The translations under genes were made by a program, and so were the position numbers. Shown here piece by piece: positions 1,301-42,566 of a stretch of DNA of 61,235 bases (positions are counted from its first letter, which is position 1; each line of letters starts with the position of its first letter). The DNA is from Eubacteriales bacterium (GTDB taxonomy: Bacteria > Bacillota > Clostridia > UBA1381): contig JAHAZB010000017.1 of the NCBI GenBank assembly GCA_018384175.1, forward strand, positions 1 to 61,235, given 5' to 3'. A model generated the notes under the pieces. That model was not told where the DNA came from. It made no database searches and saw nothing but the letters and a program-made list of their open reading frames with translations.

Positions 1301-1873
1301 TCAATATTTGAGGACGCTTTTCCTGTTAAACTCATTTTGTCTGTTGTTTACGCTCCTCGCTACATTCTTGCAAATTGCAAAATTTATAATATCTGCCGGT
1401 GTATAGCGTTCATACACATTTTTGATATGCTCGTCGTAATTTAAAATTTCGTTCTCTCGTTGCTGTTTTGCGAACTTATACAGATACATAGTAAATACCG
1501 GATCAAAACCATATCCTCGAATAGCTTTGATTGTGTTGTCATTGTTGTCTATCACAAAAATTACACCAACCAAGCCAGTCTTTTCCGATATATCCGTATC
1601 AAAATCCTTATACAGCCCTGCATTAAAAGGCATATCAAAAATAAATGATTCACCAAATTTTGCACTTATAAATACTATCCCCTCGATAACAGTTAAATAA
1701 ACATCCAATGCTCCGCTTTCAAGGGCTGATATTTCCTCATCCGTAAAATCCGACATTCCTATTACAATATTGAACATACCGTCGTGTATCTCAAATATTG
1801 CACCGTCTCCGCCCAAGTTCTTATCAAACCTGTCTCCAACAGCATATCTGATATAGTCTGAATCTTTACACAT
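1301..1873 (-). CDS. hypothetical protein
   Basis: 190-aa ORF with good coding character. Confidence 0.7.
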   Translation of the reverse strand: MCKDSDYIRYAVGDRFDKNLGGDGAIFEIHDGMFNIVIGMSDFTDEEISALESGALDVYLTVIEGIVFISAKFGESFIFDMPFNAGLYKDFDTDISEKTGLVGVIFVIDNNDNTIKAIRGYGFDPVFTMYLYKFAKQQRENEILNYDEHIKNVYERYTPADIINFAICKNVARSVNNRQNEFNRKSVLKY

Positions 1874-12366: not shown

Positions 12367-13101
12367 CTATTTCTCATACTGTGCAATACCTTTCATCAAG
12401 AGTTTTCTTGCAGAAAATGCAATCTTAGTAGTTTCAAGCTCTCCTTTTGCAAGCAGATAGTAAAGCATTGTACTGATTGCCGTTGCTGCAAAGATATTCG
12501 CCGCAATACTCTGCGGTGCCGACACGCTCCGCTCCGCACAAGAAAGCTCGGACGGAAATTTCTCTGTATCGGTCAGAATATCCGGAAATATACTTGCAAC
12601 TGGCTCTGATACAACCTTACCATTTTCCTTGATACCGCACACAACCTGTCCTGTGTATTCGCCGTTACCTGAGTCAATGTATATAACGTCATCCAGTTTA
12701 TTGAATACGTTATGACACATCACTCTCGAACGGTTATTATCCACAGCACCGATTATGATATATGCAGGCTTTTGCGACCTTGCTTCATTGGTTTTAGGAA
12801 TCAGCAAATCACATAGCATATCTTCATCCTCGATATATTCGGGAATATATTCCGTTTCAATACCAAAGGTTTCTGAATATCTTTCTGCCATCGCCTCTGC
12901 CTTGTTGGTACCAATATCAAACTCAGAAAAGTTCTGCCGTATAAGGTTCTTCTTCTCTACAATATCACCGTCTGCAATTACAACCCTGTATTTCCTCTTT
13001 GTTGCATAAGCAATACGGTACAGATGCGGAATAACGTACCCGCCCGTACCGCCTGCTCCGATAATAAGGATGGAAACAGGTCTTGAAAGTTGAAGCTTCA
13101 T
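12367..13101 (-). CDS. ThiF/E1-like adenylyltransferase, PRTRC-type
   Basis: ILIIGAGGTGGYVIPHLYRIA nucleotide-binding loop, VIADGDIVEKKNLIRQNF, GAVDNNRSR: canonical ThiF/E1 motifs. Confidence 0.88.
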   Translation of the reverse strand: MKLQLSRPVSILIIGAGGTGGYVIPHLYRIAYATKRKYRVVIADGDIVEKKNLIRQNFSEFDIGTNKAEAMAERYSETFGIETEYIPEYIEDEDMLCDLLIPKTNEARSQKPAYIIIGAVDNNRSRVMCHNVFNKLDDVIYIDSGNGEYTGQVVCGIKENGKVVSEPVASIFPDILTDTEKFPSELSCAERSVSAPQSIAANIFAATAISTMLYYLLAKGELETTKIAFSARKLLMKGIAQYEK

Positions 13102-14492
13102 TTCATCTCCTCCTGTTCCTTAATCTCCTTTATCGTAACTGCATCCTTCCACTTTTCGGGGAATGTTCCGTCAATGCCGTCAAAAATATCTTCAAGCGGA
13201 ATTTCCACAAACTTACCACCCACTGAAATTCTGACAAGAATATCCGGGAACACTTTATCAAAGCTGCCAACTACTGCATAAAGTCCGGTTGCCTTTTCGT
13301 CCTTATCATCATCACCGGAGAAATATGCCGGCATGGTGTTATGAGAATGGATTTCCATTACAAGAATAAACCTCTCATCTTCAAGCGGCATTTCGGTTGT
13401 GTCAACACTTGCTTTTGATACCTCCTGTTTCGGTATATGAACAAAGTATCTTTCTTCCGTCTTTGACCAGAAGATGTATGCAAGAGCTTCCGTAATCCTA
13501 TCCTTCGTGATATATGACTTGAAGAATGCCAATATCTCCGACAAGACAGAAAACGGGATTTTAGGAAGGGCGGGGATAAACCCAGCCCTTACCTTTTGGA
13601 ATGCAGTCGCTTTTCTTGTCTGAACGATAAAAGTACCGACGCCGTTTGAGCGTATCTCATAGAGTCTGCCGTTTTCGGATGGGACATATGAGATTACTTT
13701 ATCGCTCATTCTTGCAGCGTCAACCGTTTCATACAAGCCCTTGTATGCTGACATTACACCCTTCTTTTTTGCTTTAACACTCGGTGTAATTTCGCACTTT
13801 AAATCGCCCTTTGCTTTTTTGATTGCCTCAGGAAATTCCTTAGATTCCTCAATCTTCTTTTTAAAAGATGCAATCGTAGTGTCCTTTGGAGTAGTTACAT
13901 TTTTTGAAATGCTTCCATATGTAACCTTCCATGATACATTCTCTCCGTCGTCAAGCTCCGGGAAATCCTCTGCCTTTTCCAAACGCAAGGCTTCAAAGGT
14001 GATTGATGTATCAACAATTTCGTCCTTCGCCTTTCCGTATACGAAAATCGGGAGTTTTTTAATCAACCCACTTTTGGCACTTTCTGTTTCTTTCTTCTCC
14101 GCCGCTGCAAGTTCCGACGCATATATATCTTCGTCACTTTCCAGTTTGTCTGCATCTGCATTTGTGACTGCTGCGGCGTTTTCAGTTGCGGCAGGTTGTT
14201 CGACTGCTTCTTCATTCTTTTCCTCCACTTTCTCTGTACTTGGTGCTGTCTGTTCTGCAATTACCTGTGCCTCTGCTGATTGAGTAGCTACAGGCTCAGC
14301 TTGCTGTGCTACAGATGTTTCAGCAGCCTCGACAGGTGTTTTTTCTTCCTCTTTCGGTGTCTGCTCTGGCTCAGGCGTGCTTTCGCCGAACAGTTTGTCA
14401 AGGTCAGTATCCTCAAACATACCGCCAAAATCGTTGCTTCCTAAATCCATTGCGTCATCACCAAACATAATGTTCATTTTATCCTCTAACAT
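13098..14492 (-). CDS. JAMM/JAB-domain protein, PRTRC system protein A-like, with Ala/Glu-rich N-terminal region
   Basis: JAMM motif in MEIHSHNTMPAYFSGDDDKDE (HxH-x7-S-x2-D) followed by GLYAVVGSFDKVFPDILVRISVGGKFVEIP; overlaps the ThiF start. Confidence 0.85.
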   Translation of the reverse strand: MLEDKMNIMFGDDAMDLGSNDFGGMFEDTDLDKLFGESTPEPEQTPKEEEKTPVEAAETSVAQQAEPVATQSAEAQVIAEQTAPSTEKVEEKNEEAVEQPAATENAAAVTNADADKLESDEDIYASELAAAEKKETESAKSGLIKKLPIFVYGKAKDEIVDTSITFEALRLEKAEDFPELDDGENVSWKVTYGSISKNVTTPKDTTIASFKKKIEESKEFPEAIKKAKGDLKCEITPSVKAKKKGVMSAYKGLYETVDAARMSDKVISYVPSENGRLYEIRSNGVGTFIVQTRKATAFQKVRAGFIPALPKIPFSVLSEILAFFKSYITKDRITEALAYIFWSKTEERYFVHIPKQEVSKASVDTTEMPLEDERFILVMEIHSHNTMPAYFSGDDDKDEKATGLYAVVGSFDKVFPDILVRISVGGKFVEIPLEDIFDGIDGTFPEKWKDAVTIKEIKEQEEMK

Positions 14493-14546: not shown

Positions 14547-15008
14547 TCAAGCTTCCACACACCTCCTGAACGCAGACTGCCTTAACGCATTTCCGCAAGA
14601 GTATCTATGTAAAAGCCTGTACCCTCCATTGGGACGGCTGTGTTTCCTTTTAACACATACGTCAGGGGCATTCCTACCATCTGCAATCGTATCACCAAAT
14701 ATAATCTTTTCAGGATACGACATCTGATAGTCAAGACTCAGTACAACTACATTCCCTCTTTCATTCCTCTGATCTTTAAAGTGCTGACCTATTGCCGTTG
14801 ACATAGCCTGTATTGCAAATAATTCAAACGAATCGATTTCATCTTTTCGCTCATCGTATTCGCACACAGCTTCTAAAAACGGGAATACAGCAATGTCATA
14901 ATATTCATCCATTGCCAGATGTCTCGATTTTAGAAAGTCAAGCAAAATGTTATGTTGCTCCTCTGCCAACCTCCTCTGCCTCTCTGTTAACCTTTTTGTT
15001 TCATTCAT
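14547..15008 (-). CDS. sigma-70 region-2-like protein
   Basis: AEEQHNILLDFLKSRHLAMDEYYDIAVFPFLEAVCEYDERKDEIDSFELFAIQAMSTAIGQHFKDQRNERG resembles sigma region 2; start reset to MNETKR (15008) behind AAGGAGG. Confidence 0.6.
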   Translation of the reverse strand: MNETKRLTERQRRLAEEQHNILLDFLKSRHLAMDEYYDIAVFPFLEAVCEYDERKDEIDSFELFAIQAMSTAIGQHFKDQRNERGNVVVLSLDYQMSYPEKIIFGDTIADGRNAPDVCVKRKHSRPNGGYRLLHRYSCGNALRQSAFRRCVEA

Positions 15009-15032: not shown

Positions 15033-15076
15033 AAAAAAACACACGATGAAAAGTATCTACTTAACCTCGTGTGTTT
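15033..15076 (-). terminator. intrinsic-terminator-like hairpin between leader and the sigma-like gene (attenuator candidate)
   Basis: Minus strand AAACACACGA...TCGTGTGTTT, perfect 10-bp stem (15037-15046/15067-15076) followed by TTTTTTT. Confidence 0.75.
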
Positions 15077-15096
15077 AATTAACCTCAAATATTTAG

Positions 15097-15280
15097 TTTA
15101 CCTCGTAAAAATGCAAAAACAGGTTCTAAAGGACATACCTATCCCGTAAGATAGAGTTTCCTAAAGAACCCGTTTTAACCGTAACCGTTTTAGCTGCACC
15201 ATTTTTACAAGCTCATTTTATCACGCTATTTCCTACCTTGCAATATGTGGAGCTGTTTTTTTATGAAGTTTTATTTTTTT
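15097..15280 (-). promoter_or_regulatory. Duplicated promoter+leader element, copy 1
   Basis: About 184 nt, ~95% identical by eye to 34090..34273; minus-strand promoter TTGCAA(15243-15238)-17-TAAAAT(15220-15215), then a structured leader. Confidence 0.85.
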
Positions 15281-15289
15281 TATAAAAAA

Positions 15290-15320
15290 AAGAGAACGGC
15301 TACTCATTGTAACCGTCCTC
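15290..15320 (-). terminator. terminator of HU gene
   Basis: Minus strand GAGGACGGTTAC..GTAGCCGTTCTC then TTTTTTTT. Confidence 0.8.
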
Positions 15321-16678: not shown

Positions 16679-17284
16679 TTAACAGAAACAAATCTCTTTT
16701 ATCTTTCTTGCTTTTTCTTTAATATCTTCTATTAAATCAACATCTTTTGTGTAAAATAAATAATTCATATGATGATGTGCCTTAATAATCAATCTCTTTT
16801 CAGGAATTAGGATGAAATAGTCTGAGATTCCCGAAAATCCTCCAAAACTATAACGATCACACCAATCAATAAATTCTTCTTTTTTCATTTTAATTGCTTT
16901 GTTAGTGCTGATTTTTAACCCCAAAGACTTCATTAACATTTGAAACTCACTATATATATCTTGACATATTGCATCATCAGATTTCTTTAACTTATACTTT
17001 TGGGGGAATATACAAGAAAGATAACAGTCATCAAAAGCATATTCCCCAATAATCTGTTTTAATAATTCAATCATTTTAAATCCATCAAAAAAGAAATCAA
17101 TGTATGAAGGCATTTCGTTTTTTGTAACTTCATCCCAATGCATTACAAAACGATCCCAATTATTAGAATGATACACATCTAAAGAACACGGTTGAGTCAA
17201 ATATTCATCGCGTATTCCCGCTTCTTTTAGAACTCCTATCAATATCTCTTTTTCCGTTACTTTCATATCGTTTTCCTCCATCAC
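16679..17284 (-). CDS. candidate immunity protein for the adjacent RHS toxin
   Basis: Overlaps the RHS stop by 4 nt; lies directly 3' of the toxin tip, the usual immunity-gene position. Confidence 0.65.
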   Translation of the reverse strand: MMEENDMKVTEKEILIGVLKEAGIRDEYLTQPCSLDVYHSNNWDRFVMHWDEVTKNEMPSYIDFFFDGFKMIELLKQIIGEYAFDDCYLSCIFPQKYKLKKSDDAICQDIYSEFQMLMKSLGLKISTNKAIKMKKEEFIDWCDRYSFGGFSGISDYFILIPEKRLIIKAHHHMNYLFYTKDVDLIEDIKEKARKIKEICFC

Positions 17285-20200
17285 CTTATTGTCCCATCAG
17301 GATTCACGTTTATATAGTTACCCGTTTTTCCGTCAGGCGAAGCGTCCCAATGATCCCCTCCATGTCTTGAATAGTCTGGCTTAAACTTCCACTTTGTTTT
17401 TTTATGAGTGTATGAACCATCTTTATTTTTATTAAATTCATCAGGATGAGTGTCCGGAGTCTTTACTTTATCATCATCTAATAGTTTTGACGGCGGTTTA
17501 GGAGCTTTCGCCTTTCCTTTTGCGTATATAATGGCTTCACGAAGGTTCTTTCCTGTTTCAATCGCTGCTTTGAATGCATTTCTAAAGACTACACTTCCTA
17601 AGTATCCAATAGCCATAATACTTCCGCCAATTAATGCTATTTCTTTAGCAGTAAATACCACACCACATATTACTAAAGTGATGCTTTCACCAGTATAGTC
17701 AGCATAAATCACCGGATTCTGATTACCATACACATACCAGTTATATCCATCCTCGGCAGGGTCTTGCTGCGTGAATCGTCCTGTTGTCGGGTCATAGTAT
17801 CTCGCTCTTAAGTAATACAATCCTGTTTCTTCGTCATAGGTTTGTCCGAAGTATGTGAAGTGATTATCTATTGTCTCGTCTTTCTTTAAGAAGTTGCCCC
17901 ATACATCGTAGTCATAGCGGTTTTTGATATTGCCGTTTCTATCAACTATCTGCACCACATCGCCGTGTCCGTTATAGATGTAATAGTATATTTCTCCTGT
18001 TTCTTTATCTACTTGAGCAAGAACTCTGTCAGGACCCCATATGTACTGCTTCACAGGGCACATTGCATATTGGGTTGTGCCATTTGCTATTACCTCTGCA
18101 AGATCTGCAATAGCCTGAAGTCTGCCGTTTTGGTCGTAGATGTAGTACTCAATCCCGGATGAACTGCTTTCCTTTACATATCGGTATCCACTTGCATCAT
18201 ATTCAATATATACTGCATCATCACCGACCTCGGCATAATACATTTGGTCCTGTTCGTTATATCTGAACTCTGCACTTTCTTCCGAAAGGAAATCTATCTG
18301 TTCAAAATTCACCTTACGGTTGCCACGATAATCATATTCATAATATGAATCAGCACCCTTTGTTCCGCTAACTGATGCAATTCGGTTTAACTTGTCATAA
18401 TCATATGATACAGTATTTGAAACACCTTCAACCATTTCATTTGATGTGAGAATATTCCCGTTTTCGTCATATGAATAGTTATAGCTCGAAAGAACTGTTG
18501 AACCTTTTTTATTTGTAAGACCAATCAGTCTTGAAAGTCCGTCATATACATATTCTGACTTTAGGACACTTCCTTCGGAAAGAGTTGGAAATGTTATAGA
18601 TTTCAGCTTCCCGTCCGGATAGAACTCATATCTGACATTTGCATTGTCAGCAGAATTTTTGTTTACACTTCCGTCAACCTGAACCTTTGATATACGATTT
18701 TTATCATATTCATAATATGTCGGAGTACCGTAGATACCCTGACCGTCAGGGGCAGCACATCCATACTTTGCTGTCGTTATATTGCCCATTACATCATATA
18801 TGTAACTCTCATATGGGGTAAAGTATATGTTTCCTCCGTTTGTTACATCAGCTTTAAAATCATCCAAATGTGAAAGAAGCTTACCCGTTCGAGAATATGT
18901 GTTACTTTCAATTTCTCTAAGCTGCACCCTATAACTTTGCGTTGTTGCGCTATATATTCCACGAGCATCAAACACAAAATCCGCACCATGTGGATTTGCA
19001 TACTGATATTGTCTGTCTGTCAACGTTTCGTTAACCTTTATATAGCTTTCTCTTTCAACGCTACCCAAAGCATTATAATATGGATTATATAATTTGCCGT
19101 CTTTATCTACCGATTGCCATAACCTTCCCATATCATCATAGGTGTATGTATTACTGTTTCCGGTATTATCAGTATCTGAAACAAGCTTTCCCTCACCATC
19201 ATATACCCTTTGATATAATGTGCTTTCGCTTCCGGCAGAATCAGATATTTTTTGAGTCTTTATATTCCCGGCATTATCATAGGTATTGGTTATTGTTTCA
19301 TTTTGAGCATTTGTAATCTTAATCGCTCTGTTCAGTTTATCATATTTAATGCTCTGTGTAAACCCATCCTCATTAAGATTTTCATTTGCATCAATTACAC
19401 CAATCAAATTACCTGCTATATCATATGTATACTTCTTTTCGACAAAGCTATTATCCTGATAATTTTCATATGCCCGTTCGTTAATAAGCCTTCCCACACG
19501 GTCATATGTGTACTCGATAATATTTTCCTTTACCAGAGTGTTTGTTGCAGGTGTAAAATAGCGTCGAGCTTTAAATCCTGCTCCGTCTGAGGCAATATTA
19601 TATTCTGTAATATGATGATTCCCAAATATATCTACAGTCTTTACATCACGTCCAAGGCCGTCATAATATGTAATCTTCGAATTCCCTTGCGGATCAATTT
19701 CAGTAACAGTATTTGCATCACTGTCGTACACATATGAGGTTGTAACATATGAAGCCGTATTGTTAACGGTATCTATTACATTACCTTCTATCAACTCCCC
19801 GGTTCCCATATATAGATTTATTTTTGCATCATGGTATGTATAACTATGCTCTGATAATTCTTCTTCTGTAGGATATGCAGGTGTATTATCGGTTGTAACA
19901 TAATATTTGAGCTCACTTATTATCCTCTGGCACAAAAGATCTTCGTCAGATGTAAGTTTATTACCATAATTATCCTTGAGTATCGTAGTATAGGATATAT
20001 TTTCAACAGGCAACAATGCACCATTCTTATTTCCATACGATGTATACACTAAATGTTTCGGATATATTATTCTTGTCGGTCTGCCAAGCTTATCGTATTC
20101 AAAATGTGTCACATTACCTTCGTCATCCGTTACACTTTCTACTAATCCAAGAAGCATATCATACGTATATGCTGTTGTCTGTGTTTTTGTAGTTCCATTC

Positions 20201-22818
20201 TCTGTAACCTTTTTAACAATTGTAGAAGGATATGCATATCCTGTAGCAGAGGTATAGTGCTCTTCAATAACTGTTGTTCCGCTGTCATTATCAGTAGTTG
20301 TGGTACGCTTTGTTACTTTTCCTGCTGTATTGTATTCATATGTATAAGTTTCTGAGCTTCCGTCTGCTTTTCTAACATATGATGGTCTTTGCTTATTGTT
20401 ATATCCGTAATATTCAAAGCACTGTGTATTATTATCACGATACCACGATTTATTTCGTACAAATCCGGTGTCGGCAAAATACTCATAGCAGACACTATGC
20501 TTTTCTCTATCCTGTCCTATTACCGTTTCGTAATCGACCTCCTCCGTTATAAGAGTAGGCTTTCCATATGCTTTATTAACCGCATTATTCAATGACTTCT
20601 GCACATATGAGGTGTATGTATATCCATCGCCATTAGAATAGTCAAGCTTGGTTCTGGTAGGTTGCTTTTGTGAAAAATATAAATTTTCATAATTTACTGT
20701 AAGTGCATTTCCAACAGGCGTACTATATTGTATATTACCATTTTTTTCAAGTACAGCATCTTGAATTTTATAAAACTCCCTGATATGTGTACCATTTTGG
20801 CTACGTTCTCTTGTTTTTACAATATATGATCTATAATCGTTGGCAATACTGTCTATCGAGTTATGAAAACCATATCCGGTATAACCTCTGTAATATTCGT
20901 ATTCAACAACATTCTTATCATAATATTCTACATACCTTAATTTGTCGTCCGCTGTTGGCTCTACTACATGTTCATACTCACCCCGTTCTTTGACAACATA
21001 TGCCTCACATACTCCGCTGTGTCCCAAATTCCTTTGTCTTTTATCGTAAAAATAGTATGTATCAGAATGCGGACGGACAATATTACCTAAAAGATACACC
21101 ATATTATGCTTGTACCCTGTTGTATTAAACACAAAATCAGAATCAAACGATTTATCAGCAAAAGAAAACTGTATTGGAAAATACAAGTATCTTGAGCCAC
21201 TTTCCCATGTAGGATAATAGTGTGTTCTTTCTCCGATAGCATTTGTAACATGCATCAAAATAGGCTCTGTTGAAATATAGTTATTATCAGGATCGAACAC
21301 ATCAGCCATCAACTTCTCATACTCAAGTGTTAAGCCTATTTCCGCGGTACCCGGCTCACTGACAGTTACGGTTATGCTTTCATAAACTTCCCCATCAACA
21401 ATGTATTCCTCTGAATAATCAAACCTTACAACTCTTCCGACGGTGTCAATAATACTTGACAGTATCGGGGTGTCATTTACACCATAAAAGTCTTTCTCTG
21501 TATAGTTAAAAGTAATTTTATTACCATATCTATCTACAATTGTACGGAGTTCTCCGTGCTTTCCAAAATAGTATTTTGTGCCATCCGGATTATCCACGAT
21601 ATAGTCAATTCGTGCAACACTACATATATCGGGTGCATAGTCAAAATAATCTGTAAAAGTTATATCTTTACCAACATAATTTGCGAATGAATATCCCTCT
21701 CCGGATATAAATTCCACCTCCATAGTATTGCCTTTACCATCATGGTAATATATTGCTTTAGCTATTTCATTTATATCCTCAATATTATCCTTAATCACCT
21801 GTACTGAAGGAAAACCCCACGACCATCCTGCACCCAGATTATTTCTTGCCTGCTGATAGCTTACCGACGAAATTTCCGATGTATAATGATAGTCAACATA
21901 TACTGTGTCACCTTCATTTTTTCGTATTTTAGACGCTGTATAATAAAACAGTCCGCCTTCTCTTTCTCTTGTGTTTATCTCTTCAACACGTCTGTCTGCC
22001 TGACTTTCGGTTAGATAAAAATAGTTGTAGGTCTCTGTTTCATTTGTTTCTGTATTTGTTTTTGTTTCTGTTACCTGAAAGCCTCCGCCTGCCGGAAATT
22101 CATATGTCCTACCATTAGCCTCAACACCGGCTGTTTTTGTATACAACTCTGCCTCAGCAGCACTATAGTACCTCGACAAATTCAAATCCAAGCCATCAAC
22201 ACCCGGCAAAACAAGGTCTGTTTCCGTAACAACAAGATTTCCGGTCATGGGATCAATGTACTCTTCTCCGAGGTTATCCCCTATAAAATTAGTTCTTCCT
22301 GTTTGATTTTGCAGAGCAAAAGAGTCCTTCGCATTCATATCCCCGAGGCGATATGCCATATCCATTGAAGACGGCACAGTTCTTGATGACACAACATTAC
22401 TGTCATGCACCAGCATTTCTCCATCTATTACAATTCCATCATCGATATAGTCACCTGGTTCCAGTTTATTCAAACTTACATATCCGTCGGAATTATATAC
22501 TGTTGCCGGAATAGTCACATCAGTATCAAATTGTATATTCTTTTCAGGCATTATTTGTACTTCCTCATACTCTATTTCTCCAACACTTGAAAGTGCTAAA
22601 GGGCTACTTTGGCTACTCATTGTCATCAACGTCACGTTTTCCGAAGAAATATGCGGTAAGCTTTCTGACTCTGTAGATAAAGCAGAAATATTGCTTGAAA
22701 TATTATTTTCCTGAATATCAATGGTTGGCTCACGTTCTATAGCATATGCTGTTAAGGAACCCAAAAGTGTCGTAACCACTAAAATTGATGATATTAATCT
22801 CTTAAACATTGTCTTCAC
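17281..22818 (-). CDS. RHS/YD-repeat polymorphic toxin with variable C-terminal domain
   Basis: Signal peptide; many YD repeats (YDNAGN, YDYRGNR); core end YLRARYYDPTTGRFTQQDPAEDGYNWYVYGNQNP; divergent tip ending HGGDHWDASPDGKTGNYINVNPDGTIR. Confidence 0.95.
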   Translation of the reverse strand: MKTMFKRLISSILVVTTLLGSLTAYAIEREPTIDIQENNISSNISALSTESESLPHISSENVTLMTMSSQSSPLALSSVGEIEYEEVQIMPEKNIQFDTDVTIPATVYNSDGYVSLNKLEPGDYIDDGIVIDGEMLVHDSNVVSSRTVPSSMDMAYRLGDMNAKDSFALQNQTGRTNFIGDNLGEEYIDPMTGNLVVTETDLVLPGVDGLDLNLSRYYSAAEAELYTKTAGVEANGRTYEFPAGGGFQVTETKTNTETNETETYNYFYLTESQADRRVEEINTREREGGLFYYTASKIRKNEGDTVYVDYHYTSEISSVSYQQARNNLGAGWSWGFPSVQVIKDNIEDINEIAKAIYYHDGKGNTMEVEFISGEGYSFANYVGKDITFTDYFDYAPDICSVARIDYIVDNPDGTKYYFGKHGELRTIVDRYGNKITFNYTEKDFYGVNDTPILSSIIDTVGRVVRFDYSEEYIVDGEVYESITVTVSEPGTAEIGLTLEYEKLMADVFDPDNNYISTEPILMHVTNAIGERTHYYPTWESGSRYLYFPIQFSFADKSFDSDFVFNTTGYKHNMVYLLGNIVRPHSDTYYFYDKRQRNLGHSGVCEAYVVKERGEYEHVVEPTADDKLRYVEYYDKNVVEYEYYRGYTGYGFHNSIDSIANDYRSYIVKTRERSQNGTHIREFYKIQDAVLEKNGNIQYSTPVGNALTVNYENLYFSQKQPTRTKLDYSNGDGYTYTSYVQKSLNNAVNKAYGKPTLITEEVDYETVIGQDREKHSVCYEYFADTGFVRNKSWYRDNNTQCFEYYGYNNKQRPSYVRKADGSSETYTYEYNTAGKVTKRTTTTDNDSGTTVIEEHYTSATGYAYPSTIVKKVTENGTTKTQTTAYTYDMLLGLVESVTDDEGNVTHFEYDKLGRPTRIIYPKHLVYTSYGNKNGALLPVENISYTTILKDNYGNKLTSDEDLLCQRIISELKYYVTTDNTPAYPTEEELSEHSYTYHDAKINLYMGTGELIEGNVIDTVNNTASYVTTSYVYDSDANTVTEIDPQGNSKITYYDGLGRDVKTVDIFGNHHITEYNIASDGAGFKARRYFTPATNTLVKENIIEYTYDRVGRLINERAYENYQDNSFVEKKYTYDIAGNLIGVIDANENLNEDGFTQSIKYDKLNRAIKITNAQNETITNTYDNAGNIKTQKISDSAGSESTLYQRVYDGEGKLVSDTDNTGNSNTYTYDDMGRLWQSVDKDGKLYNPYYNALGSVERESYIKVNETLTDRQYQYANPHGADFVFDARGIYSATTQSYRVQLREIESNTYSRTGKLLSHLDDFKADVTNGGNIYFTPYESYIYDVMGNITTAKYGCAAPDGQGIYGTPTYYEYDKNRISKVQVDGSVNKNSADNANVRYEFYPDGKLKSITFPTLSEGSVLKSEYVYDGLSRLIGLTNKKGSTVLSSYNYSYDENGNILTSNEMVEGVSNTVSYDYDKLNRIASVSGTKGADSYYEYDYRGNRKVNFEQIDFLSEESAEFRYNEQDQMYYAEVGDDAVYIEYDASGYRYVKESSSSGIEYYIYDQNGRLQAIADLAEVIANGTTQYAMCPVKQYIWGPDRVLAQVDKETGEIYYYIYNGHGDVVQIVDRNGNIKNRYDYDVWGNFLKKDETIDNHFTYFGQTYDEETGLYYLRARYYDPTTGRFTQQDPAEDGYNWYVYGNQNPVIYADYTGESITLVICGVVFTAKEIALIGGSIMAIGYLGSVVFRNAFKAAIETGKNLREAIIYAKGKAKAPKPPSKLLDDDKVKTPDTHPDEFNKNKDGSYTHKKTKWKFKPDYSRHGGDHWDASPDGKTGNYINVNPDGTIR

Positions 22819-23671
22819 CTCCGCTTACTGTCTTTGATAGCAAATTTCCCATATTGTCATAAGTATAAGAAACTGATACACCGTTCCTTTTATCAATTTG
22901 AACCAATCTATTATTTGCATTATAATAATATGCGTTTACACCACTATTCCCGTCAAAATCAATGGATGCTCTCACTGGCATAATCCCCGAATGCCACAGC
23001 ATAAGCTTTGCTCTCTTTTCTGTTTGGGTATTAAACTGATATATCAAACTGATATTGCCGCTAAGATTAGACGGTACTTTTACATCTGACTTTTTAACAT
23101 TTACCATTCTCTTATCGTCATCATATGTTGCGAGAAGCAAGGTGATATCCTTTTCTGCATTTGTACTGTTTGTAACACTGAATAAGCACTGTAGCTGAGC
23201 TTTATCAACAACTCTGAGTCCGGCTTCGCCTGTATTTACATCATTTATCTTAATCTGAGAAGTAAACGATATTCCTTCCTCATCAGAAACCACATTTTCA
23301 GATACTGTGTTTACCTGTTCCGATTCCAAAACATCTGTCTCTGTCTGCAGCATTGATGACACAGCATTACTTTGAGATGTTGATGTTATCGGATAAACAT
23401 AGTACACCGCATCCGGATTCTCCCATTCAAGCAAAACAATAAATGCACTTTTCGAAAAGTCCACACTTGAACAAATCCCATTGTCGTACTGAGATACCGG
23501 TCCTGTATACAATATAACCTCTTCATCATCGACATACTTCACAACCTTAACATTTGTATCTGTTACAAGGCTTGTTTGTGTCATTTCACTTACACTTATC
23601 CCATCTGCATATGCTATATTGCCCACTAAAAGGCAACAGCACGCGAGAAGCATGATTAGTTTTTTCTTCAT
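22802..23671 (-). CDS. secreted protein with a single C-terminal YD repeat (RHS-associated)
   Basis: Signal peptide; C-term NAYYYNANNRLVQIDKRNGVSVSYTYDNMGNLLSK; overlaps the RHS start. Confidence 0.75.
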   Translation of the reverse strand: MKKKLIMLLACCCLLVGNIAYADGISVSEMTQTSLVTDTNVKVVKYVDDEEVILYTGPVSQYDNGICSSVDFSKSAFIVLLEWENPDAVYYVYPITSTSQSNAVSSMLQTETDVLESEQVNTVSENVVSDEEGISFTSQIKINDVNTGEAGLRVVDKAQLQCLFSVTNSTNAEKDITLLLATYDDDKRMVNVKKSDVKVPSNLSGNISLIYQFNTQTEKRAKLMLWHSGIMPVRASIDFDGNSGVNAYYYNANNRLVQIDKRNGVSVSYTYDNMGNLLSKTVSGGEDNV

Positions 23672-30887: not shown

Positions 30888-33800
30888 TTACGCAACATCA
30901 AACAGCGTCATCTGATCTCCCTCAAAAGAGAACTGAATATTCTGCTTAACTGCTCCGCTATCCTTAATTCCTCTCGCTTGCCTTGCAAGTAATCTCGCCT
31001 TTTCTATCTTATCAGCGATAGAAACAGTAACCTTTACCTGTACTTCATCTGATATGATGTATTCGGACATATCCTCCTCTGGCTCATCGTTATCTTTTAT
31101 GATAGCCATTCGTTTGAACATCTCCGCCACATCCTCAACCTCGTTCTTGATACCCATTGTAAGCTCTTTTGCAAGCTGTGATGTCATGTCTGCATCATCG
31201 CCAAGTGCTGCCAGACCTTCATCTGTGAAATTACCCTCTACTAATGTTGCCGCCGCAAGTTTCGATGCCATAAGACGTATCGCTCTTGCCTGCATTACAT
31301 CCTTGTAGTAAAGGATATATACCTCAATTCTTGGTGCCGTCTGGTTAATCCTCCACGAACGCCTTGAGCTTTGGCGAAATGTGAAGAGGTTGTACCCGAT
31401 GTTGTAGTAGATAAGAGTAGTGAATGAATTGAGATCCAATCCGGTCTCAACCAAACTAGGGTTTGTTATTAGAACATCAAGACCATCTTTTATCTTCTTT
31501 TCCACCCATTGCTCTCTCTTCTCAGGTGCAACTGTCTGCGGAAGGACTGCTACACGATAGCCATTATCCTCCAGCAGTTTCTTCAGCTTATCCTGTGTGT
31601 CAATCTTTACCCAACTCGTATAGATTAATACCTTTTCGCCATTTTCCACTTTACGCTTCACTATATCAAGTGTTGCCGTATCCTTTTCATGAAGTTCGTC
31701 AAAATTTGACAGACTTTTTGGTTCTACTACAGCAATATCACTGTCAGGAAACATAATTGGTTCTGCATCATATGGTTGGTCAGGATATGTAGTCAAAAGA
31801 CTCAAAAACTTTGACATAAGCCTCCTGCTTTCCAACCCCTTTGTCTGCATCACACTCTTATATGTCTTCTCAATTCTTTTATACTCTTCAGCAATATCGT
31901 CTCTTAAATTAAGTTCAATAGGTATCTCCTCATATTCAGGAAGATGTTTGCCCATATCGTTAAGTGATAGAAATACCGCACAATCCATTAAGAACCTCGA
32001 ATATACAAGCGGTGATACTCCCGGTCGTTGTCGAGATTGTGTAAGTTTCTTTCTGCTCTTGGAATTCTCGTTGTATTCACTCTCTTCAAGCTCGTATGTT
32101 GTCTCAGTAACACCATATTCATCATTAAATCGCTGCGGTGTTTCATAGTCCTTATTGTCAGCTTTCATGAAGTGCGGTACAATTCTGTAAAGGAGATAGA
32201 AAAGTCCGCTTGAATAGCCATTGATTAGTGTTGCTGTCATACCTATAACCTTCTTGCTGCAGCCAATTAGAGTTTCCATCGCATCGCCTTGTCCACTATC
32301 ACCCTTAAACAGATGTAATTCATCCGCTATAAGACCGTCAACATTTTTTATATGTTCAGCGATAAAACTACTCATCGAATATCGTCTGTAAGCACCCTTC
32401 GCAATAAAAATCTGGTCAGGATTATCTACAATCTCATTTATTTTAGCAATAACTTTTTCACTATTAGTTTTCTTCAAGTGTCTTGCTGCAAAATCACGAT
32501 ATACGAAACCATAACCTCCGATTTTTACCCATTTGTTATGCCTTAAATCCATATCATAAGGATTCAAAGCAGTCCAAAGTGTTTTCTTACACTGAGGGTT
32601 AGTACAGAAATGGTTTTGCGTATTTCTCTTTTTAAAGAAATACTGATTAGCATTAATAGTATAATAGGCATCATCTCTTTTAACCTGCATAGTGACAACC
32701 TCACCGCACCACGGGCATATAAAACCTTTTCTGACTCTTGAATACACAACAGCCGGACGATGCATATATCCGTCTCTTGCACGTTCTTTTGATAGAACAA
32801 TATATTTACTCTCTGCTCCATCCTGAAAGTCTTTATATGCTCTTTTGATGTCTGCTATGGAATACACTACTTCTGCATTAGTATTCGGCAAAGACTCTTC
32901 TATCTCACGAACCCATTTCTTGGTTACATGGGACGGAGAAAGAATCACATTAAACGTCTTTCTGCCGTTTTGATGTGCTGCAAGTGCAACGGAGCCAATT
33001 TTTGTCTTTCCACTGCCGCACTCAGCAACTACCAATCCTACCTTTGCCATGTCAAGCCTGCGTTTTAAGCTTTCCGCAACAGCAAGCTGTGCAGGGTACA
33101 GACTATATCCGACATTTTTCTTGATATGTCCGTTAATTATTTTTAATCTGTCGCATATGCTCTCTGTTTCAGGATCAAATAGCGGATTAAATGAATCTCT
33201 GATTCTGTTGGCAATTTTGATACCGTATTTGTTCAGGTATTCAGACACCGATTTGATATTCAACAGTTCCTTTGACTGCACAGAATTAGGAATCGATATT
33301 ACTCCCATTTTTAGCCCATCATTTACAACTGCTTCCATATCTTGTTCATCGTCACTGAGTTCGAGCTGGTATGCGTCAAAGCTTTCACTTAATGACAGCA
33401 CCTTCAATTTTGTGAGCATTCCACGTTTTTGACATTCCGATAATATATAGTCCTTAAAATCAGGTATCAGCGGAATTGATGTTTTCCTGTCAAACTCAGC
33501 AAAAAGTTCGTCTGTATCACCTTCTTTACAGAAGATATACATTTTGTGTTTCTCGTCTTTTTTGTTATCTCTTTGTCCCTCCTCGGTTTCTGCACCAATT
33601 TCATCGTCAAGTGCCATTACCATGCCTTCAGCATACATACCGTCATGAGTAATGCTGCGCCTGAAATCTTTCTGCATAACCTTTAAAATTATCGGATGAT
33701 TATCAACATTTGCTTGAACAGTCACACCTTTCCGCACAACATCAGACATTGCTTTTACATGTTCTGCATAACCGCCAAATCGCATTGCAACAAGTTCTCT

Positions 33801-33920
33801 TGTATTTCCGTCTCGCTTATTAAATACAAATGTATCAGCGTAACAAGAAATAGCAATTTTTGCATCATAGTCGTTATATGTGACCGTTGAAAGCTCTGTC
33901 ATTTCTACAATAGAAACCAC
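30888..33920 (-). CDS. SNF2/DEAD-like helicase with embedded zinc-binding region
   Basis: Walker A VAECGSGKTKIG; IADELHLFKGDSGQGDAMETLIGCSKKVIGMTATLING; helicase C ITNPSLVETGLDL..YYNIGYNLFTFRQSSRRSWRINQ; CPWCG...CTNPQCKK. Confidence 0.9.
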   Translation of the reverse strand: MVSIVEMTELSTVTYNDYDAKIAISCYADTFVFNKRDGNTRELVAMRFGGYAEHVKAMSDVVRKGVTVQANVDNHPIILKVMQKDFRRSITHDGMYAEGMVMALDDEIGAETEEGQRDNKKDEKHKMYIFCKEGDTDELFAEFDRKTSIPLIPDFKDYILSECQKRGMLTKLKVLSLSESFDAYQLELSDDEQDMEAVVNDGLKMGVISIPNSVQSKELLNIKSVSEYLNKYGIKIANRIRDSFNPLFDPETESICDRLKIINGHIKKNVGYSLYPAQLAVAESLKRRLDMAKVGLVVAECGSGKTKIGSVALAAHQNGRKTFNVILSPSHVTKKWVREIEESLPNTNAEVVYSIADIKRAYKDFQDGAESKYIVLSKERARDGYMHRPAVVYSRVRKGFICPWCGEVVTMQVKRDDAYYTINANQYFFKKRNTQNHFCTNPQCKKTLWTALNPYDMDLRHNKWVKIGGYGFVYRDFAARHLKKTNSEKVIAKINEIVDNPDQIFIAKGAYRRYSMSSFIAEHIKNVDGLIADELHLFKGDSGQGDAMETLIGCSKKVIGMTATLINGYSSGLFYLLYRIVPHFMKADNKDYETPQRFNDEYGVTETTYELEESEYNENSKSRKKLTQSRQRPGVSPLVYSRFLMDCAVFLSLNDMGKHLPEYEEIPIELNLRDDIAEEYKRIEKTYKSVMQTKGLESRRLMSKFLSLLTTYPDQPYDAEPIMFPDSDIAVVEPKSLSNFDELHEKDTATLDIVKRKVENGEKVLIYTSWVKIDTQDKLKKLLEDNGYRVAVLPQTVAPEKREQWVEKKIKDGLDVLITNPSLVETGLDLNSFTTLIYYNIGYNLFTFRQSSRRSWRINQTAPRIEVYILYYKDVMQARAIRLMASKLAAATLVEGNFTDEGLAALGDDADMTSQLAKELTMGIKNEVEDVAEMFKRMAIIKDNDEPEEDMSEYIISDEVQVKVTVSIADKIEKARLLARQARGIKDSGAVKQNIQFSFEGDQMTLFDVA

Positions 33921-33942: not shown

Positions 33943-34021
33943 CCTTTTCTCCTCCTCTTAGATTTTTCTTTCTTTCCTAAACCCTCATATTCTTACCTCC
34001 TTGTAGTCTTGAATAAAACGA

Positions 34022-34067
34022 AAAACACACTATGAAAGTCTTATTTGACTTTTCCAAAGTGTGTTTT
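34022..34067 (-). terminator. intrinsic-terminator-like hairpin between leader copy 2 and helicase operon
   Basis: Minus strand AAAACACACT..AAAAGTC..GACTTTC..AGTGTGTTTTTCGTTTT. Confidence 0.72.
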
Positions 34068-34089: not shown

Positions 34090-34273
34090 TTTACCTCGTA
34101 AAAATGCAAAAACAGGTTCTAAAGGACGCACCTATCCCTTTGGATAGAGCTTCCTAAAAAACCCGTTTTAACCGTAACCGTTTTAGCTGCACCATTTTTA
34201 CAAGCTCATTTTACCACGCTATTTCCTGCTTTGCAATATGTGGAGCTGTTTTTTTATGAAGTTTTATTTTTTT
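34090..34273 (-). promoter_or_regulatory. Duplicated promoter+leader element, copy 2
   Basis: Promoter TTGCAA(34236-34231)-17-TAAAAT(34213-34208); ~10 differences from copy 1. Confidence 0.85.
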
Positions 34274-37929: not shown

Positions 37930-38805
37930 TTACTTATGCATCTTTCGAAGAATTTTACCGTATACAAGTTTTCTCTCGTAATTATGTTTACGGATAAGTA
38001 CCTCAACATCATCACCTATCTTGTAGTCGCCATCATACTCCATCGTTGCATAGGAACAGAGAATTTCTGTCACACCATCAAACAAACGGCAATATACACC
38101 GCCTCCGTATTTACCAACAATCTTGGCTATTCTCGTGGAACCCACAGGATGTCTTGTTTCTATACCGTCAAACGGATGAGGAATTGTGTCTTTTATAGAA
38201 AGTCTTAATACATTACTTTTTCTGTCAAATTCCTTTATAAGCGCTTTCTTTATTTCTCCGGGACGTAAAACCGCACGAAGGTCTGGTACCGTATTGTGAC
38301 TTACTTCTTTTTGTACAAGAACAACATCATATCCACAATATGTAACTGTACACGCTCCTCTGCCTACCGAGACAACTTCCGCCTGAATAATCTGACCCGG
38401 AGTGATTTTTCGTCTCGCATTTACTCTTTTTATCTGTTCAAGAGCTTTTTTGCGCGATGCTATTGCAACACCCGAAAGTCTGTCTATCTCAGTTATAATA
38501 AAAGAGATTTTGGCACCATTCATTGACAGCAGTGACGGCGGCTCATCAAAATCAAGAAACACCTCAGTTTCTGGAATAATTATTTTCACTCGGTATGGGA
38601 TTACAATCAGGCATAGTATTGTATGATTTGATGCACGCTTTTTCCCTTCCGGTACATAACTTAATTCGTGCTCATCCACACCTACAACTACTCCAGTCAA
38701 AACCGAACCGCCTCTATATGACGCATAAATTGCCTGCCATTCCTGTCGTTCCTCTTCTGACAAGTTCCTGTCAAGTTCCGCTAAATTTAATTCTTTGAAA
38801 TCCAT
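37930..38805 (-). CDS. S1 RNA-binding domain protein
   Basis: Ribosomal-S1-like repeats: PGQIIQAEVVSVGRGACTVTYCGYDVVLVQKEVS; VGSTRIAKIVGKYGGGVYCRLFDGVTEILCSYA. Confidence 0.75.
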   Translation of the reverse strand: MDFKELNLAELDRNLSEEERQEWQAIYASYRGGSVLTGVVVGVDEHELSYVPEGKKRASNHTILCLIVIPYRVKIIIPETEVFLDFDEPPSLLSMNGAKISFIITEIDRLSGVAIASRKKALEQIKRVNARRKITPGQIIQAEVVSVGRGACTVTYCGYDVVLVQKEVSHNTVPDLRAVLRPGEIKKALIKEFDRKSNVLRLSIKDTIPHPFDGIETRHPVGSTRIAKIVGKYGGGVYCRLFDGVTEILCSYATMEYDGDYKIGDDVEVLIRKHNYERKLVYGKILRKMHK

Positions 38806-40478: not shown

Positions 40479-42566
40479 CTAATCAAAAATATTGTTAATA
40501 TCTGTTTCTTTGTACTCATCTGTTTCAGCACCCACAATTTCATCCTCTGCAAAATCAAGTATGATTTGCTGTGGCTTTTGGGATGCTTTTGGTATATCTT
40601 TCTGTTTCGGTTTTTCCTCTTTTACCGGAATTGGTTCATCATCATCCTCAGGTTCATCATATACAAAGTTATAGTGTACCGTTGTTGTTTTCTTCTTCTG
40701 TTGCTCCTCAATCTCATGCCATCCGGGAACATACTCACTGACACGTGTATATTTCAGTTCCTTGTATGATGAAAGCTCATCAGGAATAATCTTAAGTCCT
40801 TTTAGCGGTTTTTGACCTCTTAACAACAACAGACATTCCTTGTTATCCATCTGTAGTATTTCTTCAGGATACATAAGCGGTCTTTGGTTATTGGATTTCG
40901 TTTCACGATAACCTGTAACCTCTCTTGTGATAGGTGAAAACAGCGGTGTCTGAGGTGCCATGCTGTTCGTAAGCTGTATCGTAACATTACCACAGCGTTT
41001 TGATATGTATTCACTGGTCATCATATCGTTACAACCAAGGACAAGCTGTGTATCGCAGTTACCGACAATTTCTTCCCATTCCTTTACGGGATAACGGTCT
41101 GACAACTGTGCAATAGACTGTACTACAATCTGGCAGTTGATACCATAGCCTCTTACTACCGAAATTGTTTTTTTGAAGTCTAGAAGCTTTCCGACGTTGC
41201 AAAACTCGTCCATTACAAAATTAACCTCTACAGGTAGTCTTCCTCGTTCATCACCGTGTTTTCTTGCATAGTCTGAAAGCTTCTTAAAGAGCATTGAAAA
41301 GAACAGTGATGATAAAAACTCATACGCCGTATCCTGTGCCGAGATAATACAAAAGTATGCACAGGGTTCTTTCCCCGGAAGTTCCAAATCTATCTCATGA
41401 TACTTGGTTATCTTATCCACCAGCTTATTCTGAAACACATTCATTCGTGAGCCAAGACCGATGAACACATTACCCCAGAGATTACTTGCCGCCTGCTTGA
41501 ATATTCCGTAAGGACCTCGTGCCGGATGATCTAATGGCAGCCTTTGAAATTTCATATCCAATGACTTTGCACTTTCGCTCGACAATATTTTATATATCGT
41601 ACCTAACGACCTTTCATGCAGCGGCAGAAGCTCGTTTGTTATCGGGTCTCTCATACTCTGAACATAAAGGATAAGAGCGATAAGCAAGTTACCTTCCGCC
41701 TTATCCCAGAAGTCGGCTTTTTGTCCGTCCTCTGATGTATTACGGATTATGATTTCAGCAACAGACTGTACCATATCCACATCACCCTGCGTTTCACCGA
41801 TACAGTTCCAGCCATCCGAGTTTTCCATATCCAGAAGATTAAGTGCCTTTACCACATACCCGTTATCTCTTAAAAACTCCGAGTACTGTTCAAAAAGCTC
41901 AGCCTTCGGATCGACTATAATCATACTTTGAGGGTTCTGACCGGAGTTCTTCATCTGCACCATTTTTAGTATGTACGGCTTTACAAAGCCTCTTGATTTT
42001 CCGGCACCTGTTGCACCGTAAATCAGGATATGCTTATTAAGCCCTGAATCAGTTCGTAAGCCAAGATAGCCATTACCCGAATCATTCCCTTTCATTTTAC
42101 ACAAAATAGGCGTAGGGAGCTTATCAGCCGTATCAGATAAAAGGATTTTCTTCTGCTCATCCTTTGTCATCCAACCGGAGGTACCGTGTGTACCCTCGCT
42201 CGATACAAAGAAGTTCCTCTCATCCTTTGTTATCTTTACACCGGTTATGAGGTATGTCCATTTCCCCGATATGAGGATATACATAATTGCTATAAATACA
42301 AGAACACCTAAGCCCTCAGGTGTGAATACAGCGCCTATGCATACAAACGGATTCATCGAAAATGTTTTCTCATTCACGCCTGTATAAAAGATGTTTGTAG
42401 CACCGCAAAAGCTGTTGATAACAATTCCGTAGAGATACATAACAACAAGAGTACAAAAACAATAGTACCCGAAATTTCCCTTTACTTTTTCATAAAGGCT
42501 GTTTATCTTATCATTCTTCAAACTCATCGAAATCAACTTTTGTAAGATTAGTTTCATAAACTTCAA
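40479..42566 (-). CDS. VirD4/TraG-type coupling protein
   Basis: HILIYGATGAGKSRGFVKPYI; IIVDPKAELFEQYSEFLRDNGY; VNFVMDEFCNVGKLLDFKKTISVVRGYGI. Confidence 0.95.
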   Translation of the reverse strand: MKFMKLILQKLISMSLKNDKINSLYEKVKGNFGYYCFCTLVVMYLYGIVINSFCGATNIFYTGVNEKTFSMNPFVCIGAVFTPEGLGVLVFIAIMYILISGKWTYLITGVKITKDERNFFVSSEGTHGTSGWMTKDEQKKILLSDTADKLPTPILCKMKGNDSGNGYLGLRTDSGLNKHILIYGATGAGKSRGFVKPYILKMVQMKNSGQNPQSMIIVDPKAELFEQYSEFLRDNGYVVKALNLLDMENSDGWNCIGETQGDVDMVQSVAEIIIRNTSEDGQKADFWDKAEGNLLIALILYVQSMRDPITNELLPLHERSLGTIYKILSSESAKSLDMKFQRLPLDHPARGPYGIFKQAASNLWGNVFIGLGSRMNVFQNKLVDKITKYHEIDLELPGKEPCAYFCIISAQDTAYEFLSSLFFSMLFKKLSDYARKHGDERGRLPVEVNFVMDEFCNVGKLLDFKKTISVVRGYGINCQIVVQSIAQLSDRYPVKEWEEIVGNCDTQLVLGCNDMMTSEYISKRCGNVTIQLTNSMAPQTPLFSPITREVTGYRETKSNNQRPLMYPEEILQMDNKECLLLLRGQKPLKGLKIIPDELSSYKELKYTRVSEYVPGWHEIEEQQKKKTTTVHYNFVYDEPEDDDEPIPVKEEKPKQKDIPKASQKPQQIILDFAEDEIVGAETDEYKETDINNIFD

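Follow-up and report, generated by a model that had tools for sequence, protein, structure and literature searches.

The stretch of DNA that we analysed (hereafter, the window) is an entire contig, 61 kb long, from a draft genome of 1.98 Mb. Judging from its sequence, it is a conjugative element or plasmid: its markers are a TraG-type coupling protein, a TraG/VirB4-like ATPase, TrbL, RepA_N, and a resolvase. Beside RepA_N lies a gene for an S1-domain RNA-binding protein (window 37933-38805), which is a candidate for an RNA-binding factor of the element. Two operons on the minus strand are each preceded by a copy of the same leader (Table 1). Copy 1 heads a PRTRC operon, whose first gene encodes a sigma-70-region-2-like protein. 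Homologues of this protein match both TIGR02937 and Pfam region 2, with values as low as 2.5e-5 and 0.002, respectively. Its predicted structure (pLDDT 73.6) has sigma factors, or complexes that contain them, as the top-ranked PDB neighbours; none is significant. Besides the JAB-domain and ThiF-family genes, the operon contains genes for a DUF6094 methyltransferase, a Prok-E2 protein, a Rad52-like protein, an SMC-like ATPase, and a CHC2 zinc-finger (primase-like) protein. Copy 2 is followed by the helicase-like gene and then by genes for a DnaN-like clamp, a DUF3268 protein, a MoxR-like ATPase, SSB, and a VWA protein. Given the gene content of the two operons, both leaders head DNA replication and recombination genes. 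The secretion genes in the window have no leader copy in front of them. The region between the two leader-driven operons (window 16679-23671) is cargo-like, with an RHS-repeat gene, a 1,845-aa ORF, and smaller ORFs.

Table 1. Coordinates of the leaders, their parts, and associated features (window positions unless a locus is named)
Feature	Position	Strand	Remarks
ThiF-family gene	12367..13101	-	PRTRC operon
JAB-domain gene	13098..14492	-	sits where genome G064 has its PRTRC protein A homologue; the NCBIfam match is that of the G064 homologue
Sigma-70-region-2-like gene	14547..15008	-	gene 1 of PRTRC operon; ATG at 15008; evidence weak but consistent, mostly via homologues
Copy 1 T2, predicted intrinsic terminator	15034..15076	-	AAACACACGA...TCGTGTGTTT + U7; hairpin 15076-15037
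Three GAGGTWAA sites	15061..15104	-	starts at 15061, 15079, 15097
Copy 1 P1, 3' strand	15102..15113	-	pairs with 15200-15211
Copy 1 P2 hairpin	15116..15176	-	asymmetric internal loop; P3 tip 15154-15150 / 15143-15139; terminator-like, U-run after
Copy 1 tandem repeats R1-R2	15171..15203	-	third unit begins the P2 5' arm
Copy 1 P1, 5' strand	15200..15211	-	pairs with 15102-15113; lineage-specific
Copy 1 promoter	15215..15253	-	box CTCCACATA; -35 TTGCAA (15243-15238); 17 nt; -10 TGATAAAAT (15220-15215)
Intrinsic terminator after HU gene	15292..15320	-	upstream of leader promoter; 12-bp stem, T8
Helicase-like gene	30888..33920	-	first large gene after copy 2
Copy 2 T2	34021..34067	-	sequence differs from copy 1 T2, form the same
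Copy 2 leader	34104..34211	-	P1 5' strand, repeats, P2
Copy 2 promoter	34208..34246	-	
Conserved stretch of about 450 nt	L003 480-1105; L004 1060-1560; L057 1890-2365; L044 (reverse) 1330-1640		before tyrosine recombinase genes

At 15280-15033 (minus strand), the initial annotation had placed a promoter, a hairpin, and a terminator in front of a sigma-like gene, and we found all of these parts. The promoter has an extended -10 TG, and the box upstream of its -35 has loosely similar counterparts at the equivalent place in many other leaders. The conserved leader and its hairpin are indeed present (the P2 hairpin of copy 1 has a dG of -25.8), but toward its 5' end the leader consists of an array of repeats, the third of which doubles as the 5' arm of P2. 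Also, P1 is lineage-specific, with good support limited to the window, G064, and part of G066. The second copy is at 34273-34021 on the minus strand and is 87% identical to copy 1 over 253 bases. Within the window, GGTTACGGTTAAAACGGG (allowing up to three mismatches) occurs only at the two leader copies, with 0.01 occurrences expected by chance. A 14-nt repeat match at 41955 was rejected, as it lies within a gene and no leader surrounds it. The proposed array of GAGGTWAA motifs fared less well. The spacing is exactly 18 nt in copy 1 but 25 nt in copy 2, so it is not conserved; all that homologues retain is a loose GG-A-rich motif between P2 and T2. As a Shine-Dalgarno sequence, moreover, GAGGTWAA is ordinary in the window (15 matches, versus 4.3 expected).

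A search with the sigma-like protein led to homologues with the same architecture in their upstream DNA. From six homologous leaders, leaving out the window's copies, we built a covariance model (model R1), which recovered both window copies (E = 3e-7 and 5e-6, with such E values being rough). Among 95 species-representative draft genomes from the order, model R1 gave matches in 11, including a doubtful one (G021). A second model, R2, found the leader in 6 of the 392 genomes of a class-wide sample; in a phylum sample of 399 genomes, it matched only the window's own genome. Altogether, the covariance models place the leader in at least 13 Clostridia genomes, typically with two copies per element, and the named carriers are assemblies of uncultured Clostridia. 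Matches at L045 (in G021) and L058 (from Chitinophagaceae) were judged to be doubtful or due to chance. A DNA search for the leader family gave one true homologue and one chance match (L009). The leader had no match in plasmid records, phage records, or viral contigs. Exact patterns that used the repeat variant seen in the window had none in GTDB contigs or IMG/VR; a second pattern did find matches in GTDB contigs. As for the question of whether this is a known RNA class, no leader match exceeded the gathering threshold of Rfam 15 in the window or in 14 homologous loci; matches with E up to 10 (SurC and others) were far below threshold and were discarded.

In the window and in G013, G015, G154, and G239, the two copies are on one contig and are 15-19 kb apart, with one copy before a helicase-like gene and the other before a sigma-like gene. 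Further leader copies sit before tyrosine recombinases, where they can be in tandem (up to four in L057 and two to three in L044). At L057 824-1699, the later of the promoter-leader units before the recombinase have altered hairpins. Between the leader or its terminator and the tyrosine recombinase gene there is a conserved stretch of about 450 nt, without an Rfam match, that is a candidate for a second structured RNA or a recombination site. In some leaders, hairpin-like inserts separate the promoter from the repeats (L056, L059, and L038, from genomes G154, which has two different inserts, and G059). In the G015 element, a drum RNA (RF02958, 79.9 bits) is found upstream of the leader, at L014 176-291.

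If the leader acts as a structured RNA, then its helices should covary among homologues, and P2/P3 does. Across 23 distinct sequences, P2/P3 positions were paired in 93.8% of cells, in an alignment that was fitted to the model structure and whose sequences are related. Twelve of the 14 pairs changed on both sides. None of 500 shuffles reached any of five measures, and when the partners were slid by 1-3 columns, just 39-52% could pair. RNAalifold, run on that alignment, gave the same P2/P3 helices. P2/P3 also has a conserved asymmetric internal loop and bears a conserved GUGCGCC. The changes agree with the claim that the RNA is read from the minus (gene) strand: there were 31 G-U cells versus 7 A-C cells, and 93.8% of P2/P3 cells were paired on the gene strand versus 86.0% on the opposite strand.

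These results bear on whether the repeats might be DNA operators for a repressor or activator of the element, with the hairpins mattering only as terminators. The repeats are direct, with units of 14-17 nt, and begin within about 10-20 nt of the -10 box, just downstream of the promoter; the partly conserved box before the -35 also fits. However, the third repeat belongs to a covarying RNA helix, the spacing of the repeats is variable, and the inserts in G154 and G059 part the promoter from the repeats. We consider operators to be quite unlikely.

Two repeats precede P2, and the third is its 5' arm. The letters of the repeats vary between elements, and they mostly agree within a leader and across the two leaders of an element. 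(The window is a less clear case, as its two repeats match at 8 of 14 positions.) The leaders as a whole show the same concerted change: the copies of one element are 85-100% identical, while leaders from different genomes, among the seven genomes with both copies, are 50-77% identical, irrespective of the gene served. G015 has a second element in which the repeat triplet is different (the triplets are AAA and GTA) and the leader is 75-76% identical to that of the first element. T2, which is just outside of the leader, is not homogenised between copies. The matched copies suggest either a shared element-specific factor or gene conversion, and short gene conversion alone could account for the concerted change. 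We also considered systems of the ToxIN type, which combine repeats, a terminator, and a toxin. The leader does not resemble them: its repeats are shorter and fewer, and no toxin gene lies downstream.

A terminator between the promoter and the gene, as in the initial annotation, turned out to be widespread: predicted T2 hairpins lie no more than 110 nt from P2 in all 8 sigma-side leaders and in 7 of the 9 helicase-side leaders (the exceptions are L039 and L040). By this count, 15 of the 24 leaders, taking every kind together, passed a threshold of -10 kcal/mol, versus 1.7% of dinucleotide shuffles. The sequence of T2 varies across leaders and its form is constant. Before recombinases, the terminators are more distant, as judged by eye. 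P2 itself looks like a terminator: across copies, the hairpin has an energy of about -14 to -29 kcal/mol and is followed by 3-7 T in 8 nt, and a terminator scan called P2 in all four elements examined. The tails are U-poor in L038 and L055. Most leaders, then, have two stacked predicted terminators. Beyond the leaders and the module ends, the operons have few strong intergenic terminators (G154 has one between genes 1 and 2), so the sequence does not require processivity.

Since P2 is terminator-like, the leader could instead be a trans-acting small RNA that ends either at P2 (about 100 nt) or at T2 (about 180 nt), for instance for copy control or as a decoy whose binding sites are repeated, with the downstream gene a mere neighbour. 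The unpaired repeats that are common to both copies and the tandem promoter-leader units before tyrosine recombinases would suit such an RNA. We nevertheless regard it as unlikely: the leader precedes a limited set of genes and is colinear with them, a ribosome-binding site follows T2, and the two copies head two operons.

How might termination be made conditional? The initial annotation proposed a ligand, an RNA-binding protein, or an antiterminator. With a ligand, P2/P3 would be the aptamer of a riboswitch, including the conserved GUGCGCC, and would control T2 by alternative folding. The conserved asymmetric internal loop of P2 is what an aptamer might have. But in 14 leaders, the 5' arm of T2 had no conserved alternative partner in the upstream leader, with duplex energies within those of shuffles (the lowest fractions were 0.065 and 0.075). 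Also, the leader matches no Rfam class, and the downstream genes have mobile-element rather than metabolic functions. A riboswitch therefore seems improbable, and the ligand is the less supported part of the proposal; an antiterminator, whether protein or RNA, would fit better. A leader-peptide attenuator is hardly credible. The window does contain an ORF (ATGGTGCAG..., encoding MVQLKRLRLKRVL and then a stop codon) that begins at the first repeat and is seen in several leaders, but it has no Shine-Dalgarno sequence, and homologues read MVSS and then a stop codon or have ACG in place of ATG. Nor is the reading frame maintained, given that the repeat period ranges between 14 and 17 nt.

Our preferred reading, which we consider somewhat probable, is that this is a cis-acting leader RNA of an undescribed family that provides for conditional read-through (antitermination), twice per element, at the heads of replication and recombination operons. 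The leader would be transcribed from its sigma-70-type promoter, and by default, RNA polymerase would halt at the terminator-like P2 or at T2, so that the operon would be silent or expressed at a low level. On some signal, a factor that is matched to the element might engage the leader, at the three repeats (R1-R3) and the internal loop of P2/P3, or the leader might contact the polymerase directly. The polymerase would then pass both P2 and T2, and the operon would be expressed. Since the 5' arm of P2 is made by the third repeat, a factor bound along the repeats would thereby keep P2 from folding. The order of the parts, which is conserved, and the lack of an arm-exchange partner fit a factor or direct contact with the polymerase better than a folding switch. 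More tentatively, the leader may represent a new class of antitermination RNA, carried by clostridial conjugative elements, in which repeats overlap a terminator arm and an element-encoded factor co-evolves with both copies. If so, then related elements that share a cell would retain separate control circuits. Copies that are matched yet element-specific offer a direct route to the factor, and to testing whether cross-talk is avoided within one cell. The presence of the same leader before tyrosine recombinases would tie recombination and replication genes to one switch.

By analogy, the best reading is that the leader would work like HK022 put, Tn916 canT, conAn, or the LoaP-dfn leaders. In all four of these, terminators are read through because of a factor or contact with the polymerase (PMC9378689, PMC11658703, PMC8955417, PMC12691694). 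A LoaP-regulated leader in the strict sense was rejected. The LoaP dfn/mln leader similarly has a small hairpin and then an intrinsic terminator before the first gene (PMC12691694), but none of the 95 genomes of the order had a LoaP over the cut-off (most had one NusG-like match, and G078 had two). Furthermore, the UNCG tip is found only in W1, G154, G003, and L052; other tips are AAGG, AAAG, AUAG, and UUGG. HK022 has two similar short structured RNAs, putL and putR, near the start of two transcripts (PMC9378689). The likeness of the leader to put is one of form: paired copies, stems with bulges, and a position ahead of terminators. Unlike put, the leader places an array of repeats and a terminator of its own before the gene. 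Tn916 canT also belongs to a conjugative element, and its RNA arises from an element promoter, with a terminator (T1) before DNA-processing genes (PMC11658703). However, its activity maps to 452 nt and acts at distant terminators (PMC11658703), whereas the leader measures about 95-180 nt and has its terminator next to it. The conAn RNA of pLS20-type plasmids is likewise at the start of Gram-positive conjugation operons; according to PMC8955417, it additionally requires the protein ConAn1 and serves operons that exceed 30 kb and contain many internal terminators, in contrast to the few that we found. Described RNA antiterminators of Gram-positive conjugative elements include canT (PMC11658703) and, as presented in PMC8955417, pLS20 conAn. 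If our preferred reading is correct, then the leader would be a further instance of RNA-based control of conjugative elements, in this case in gut Clostridia.
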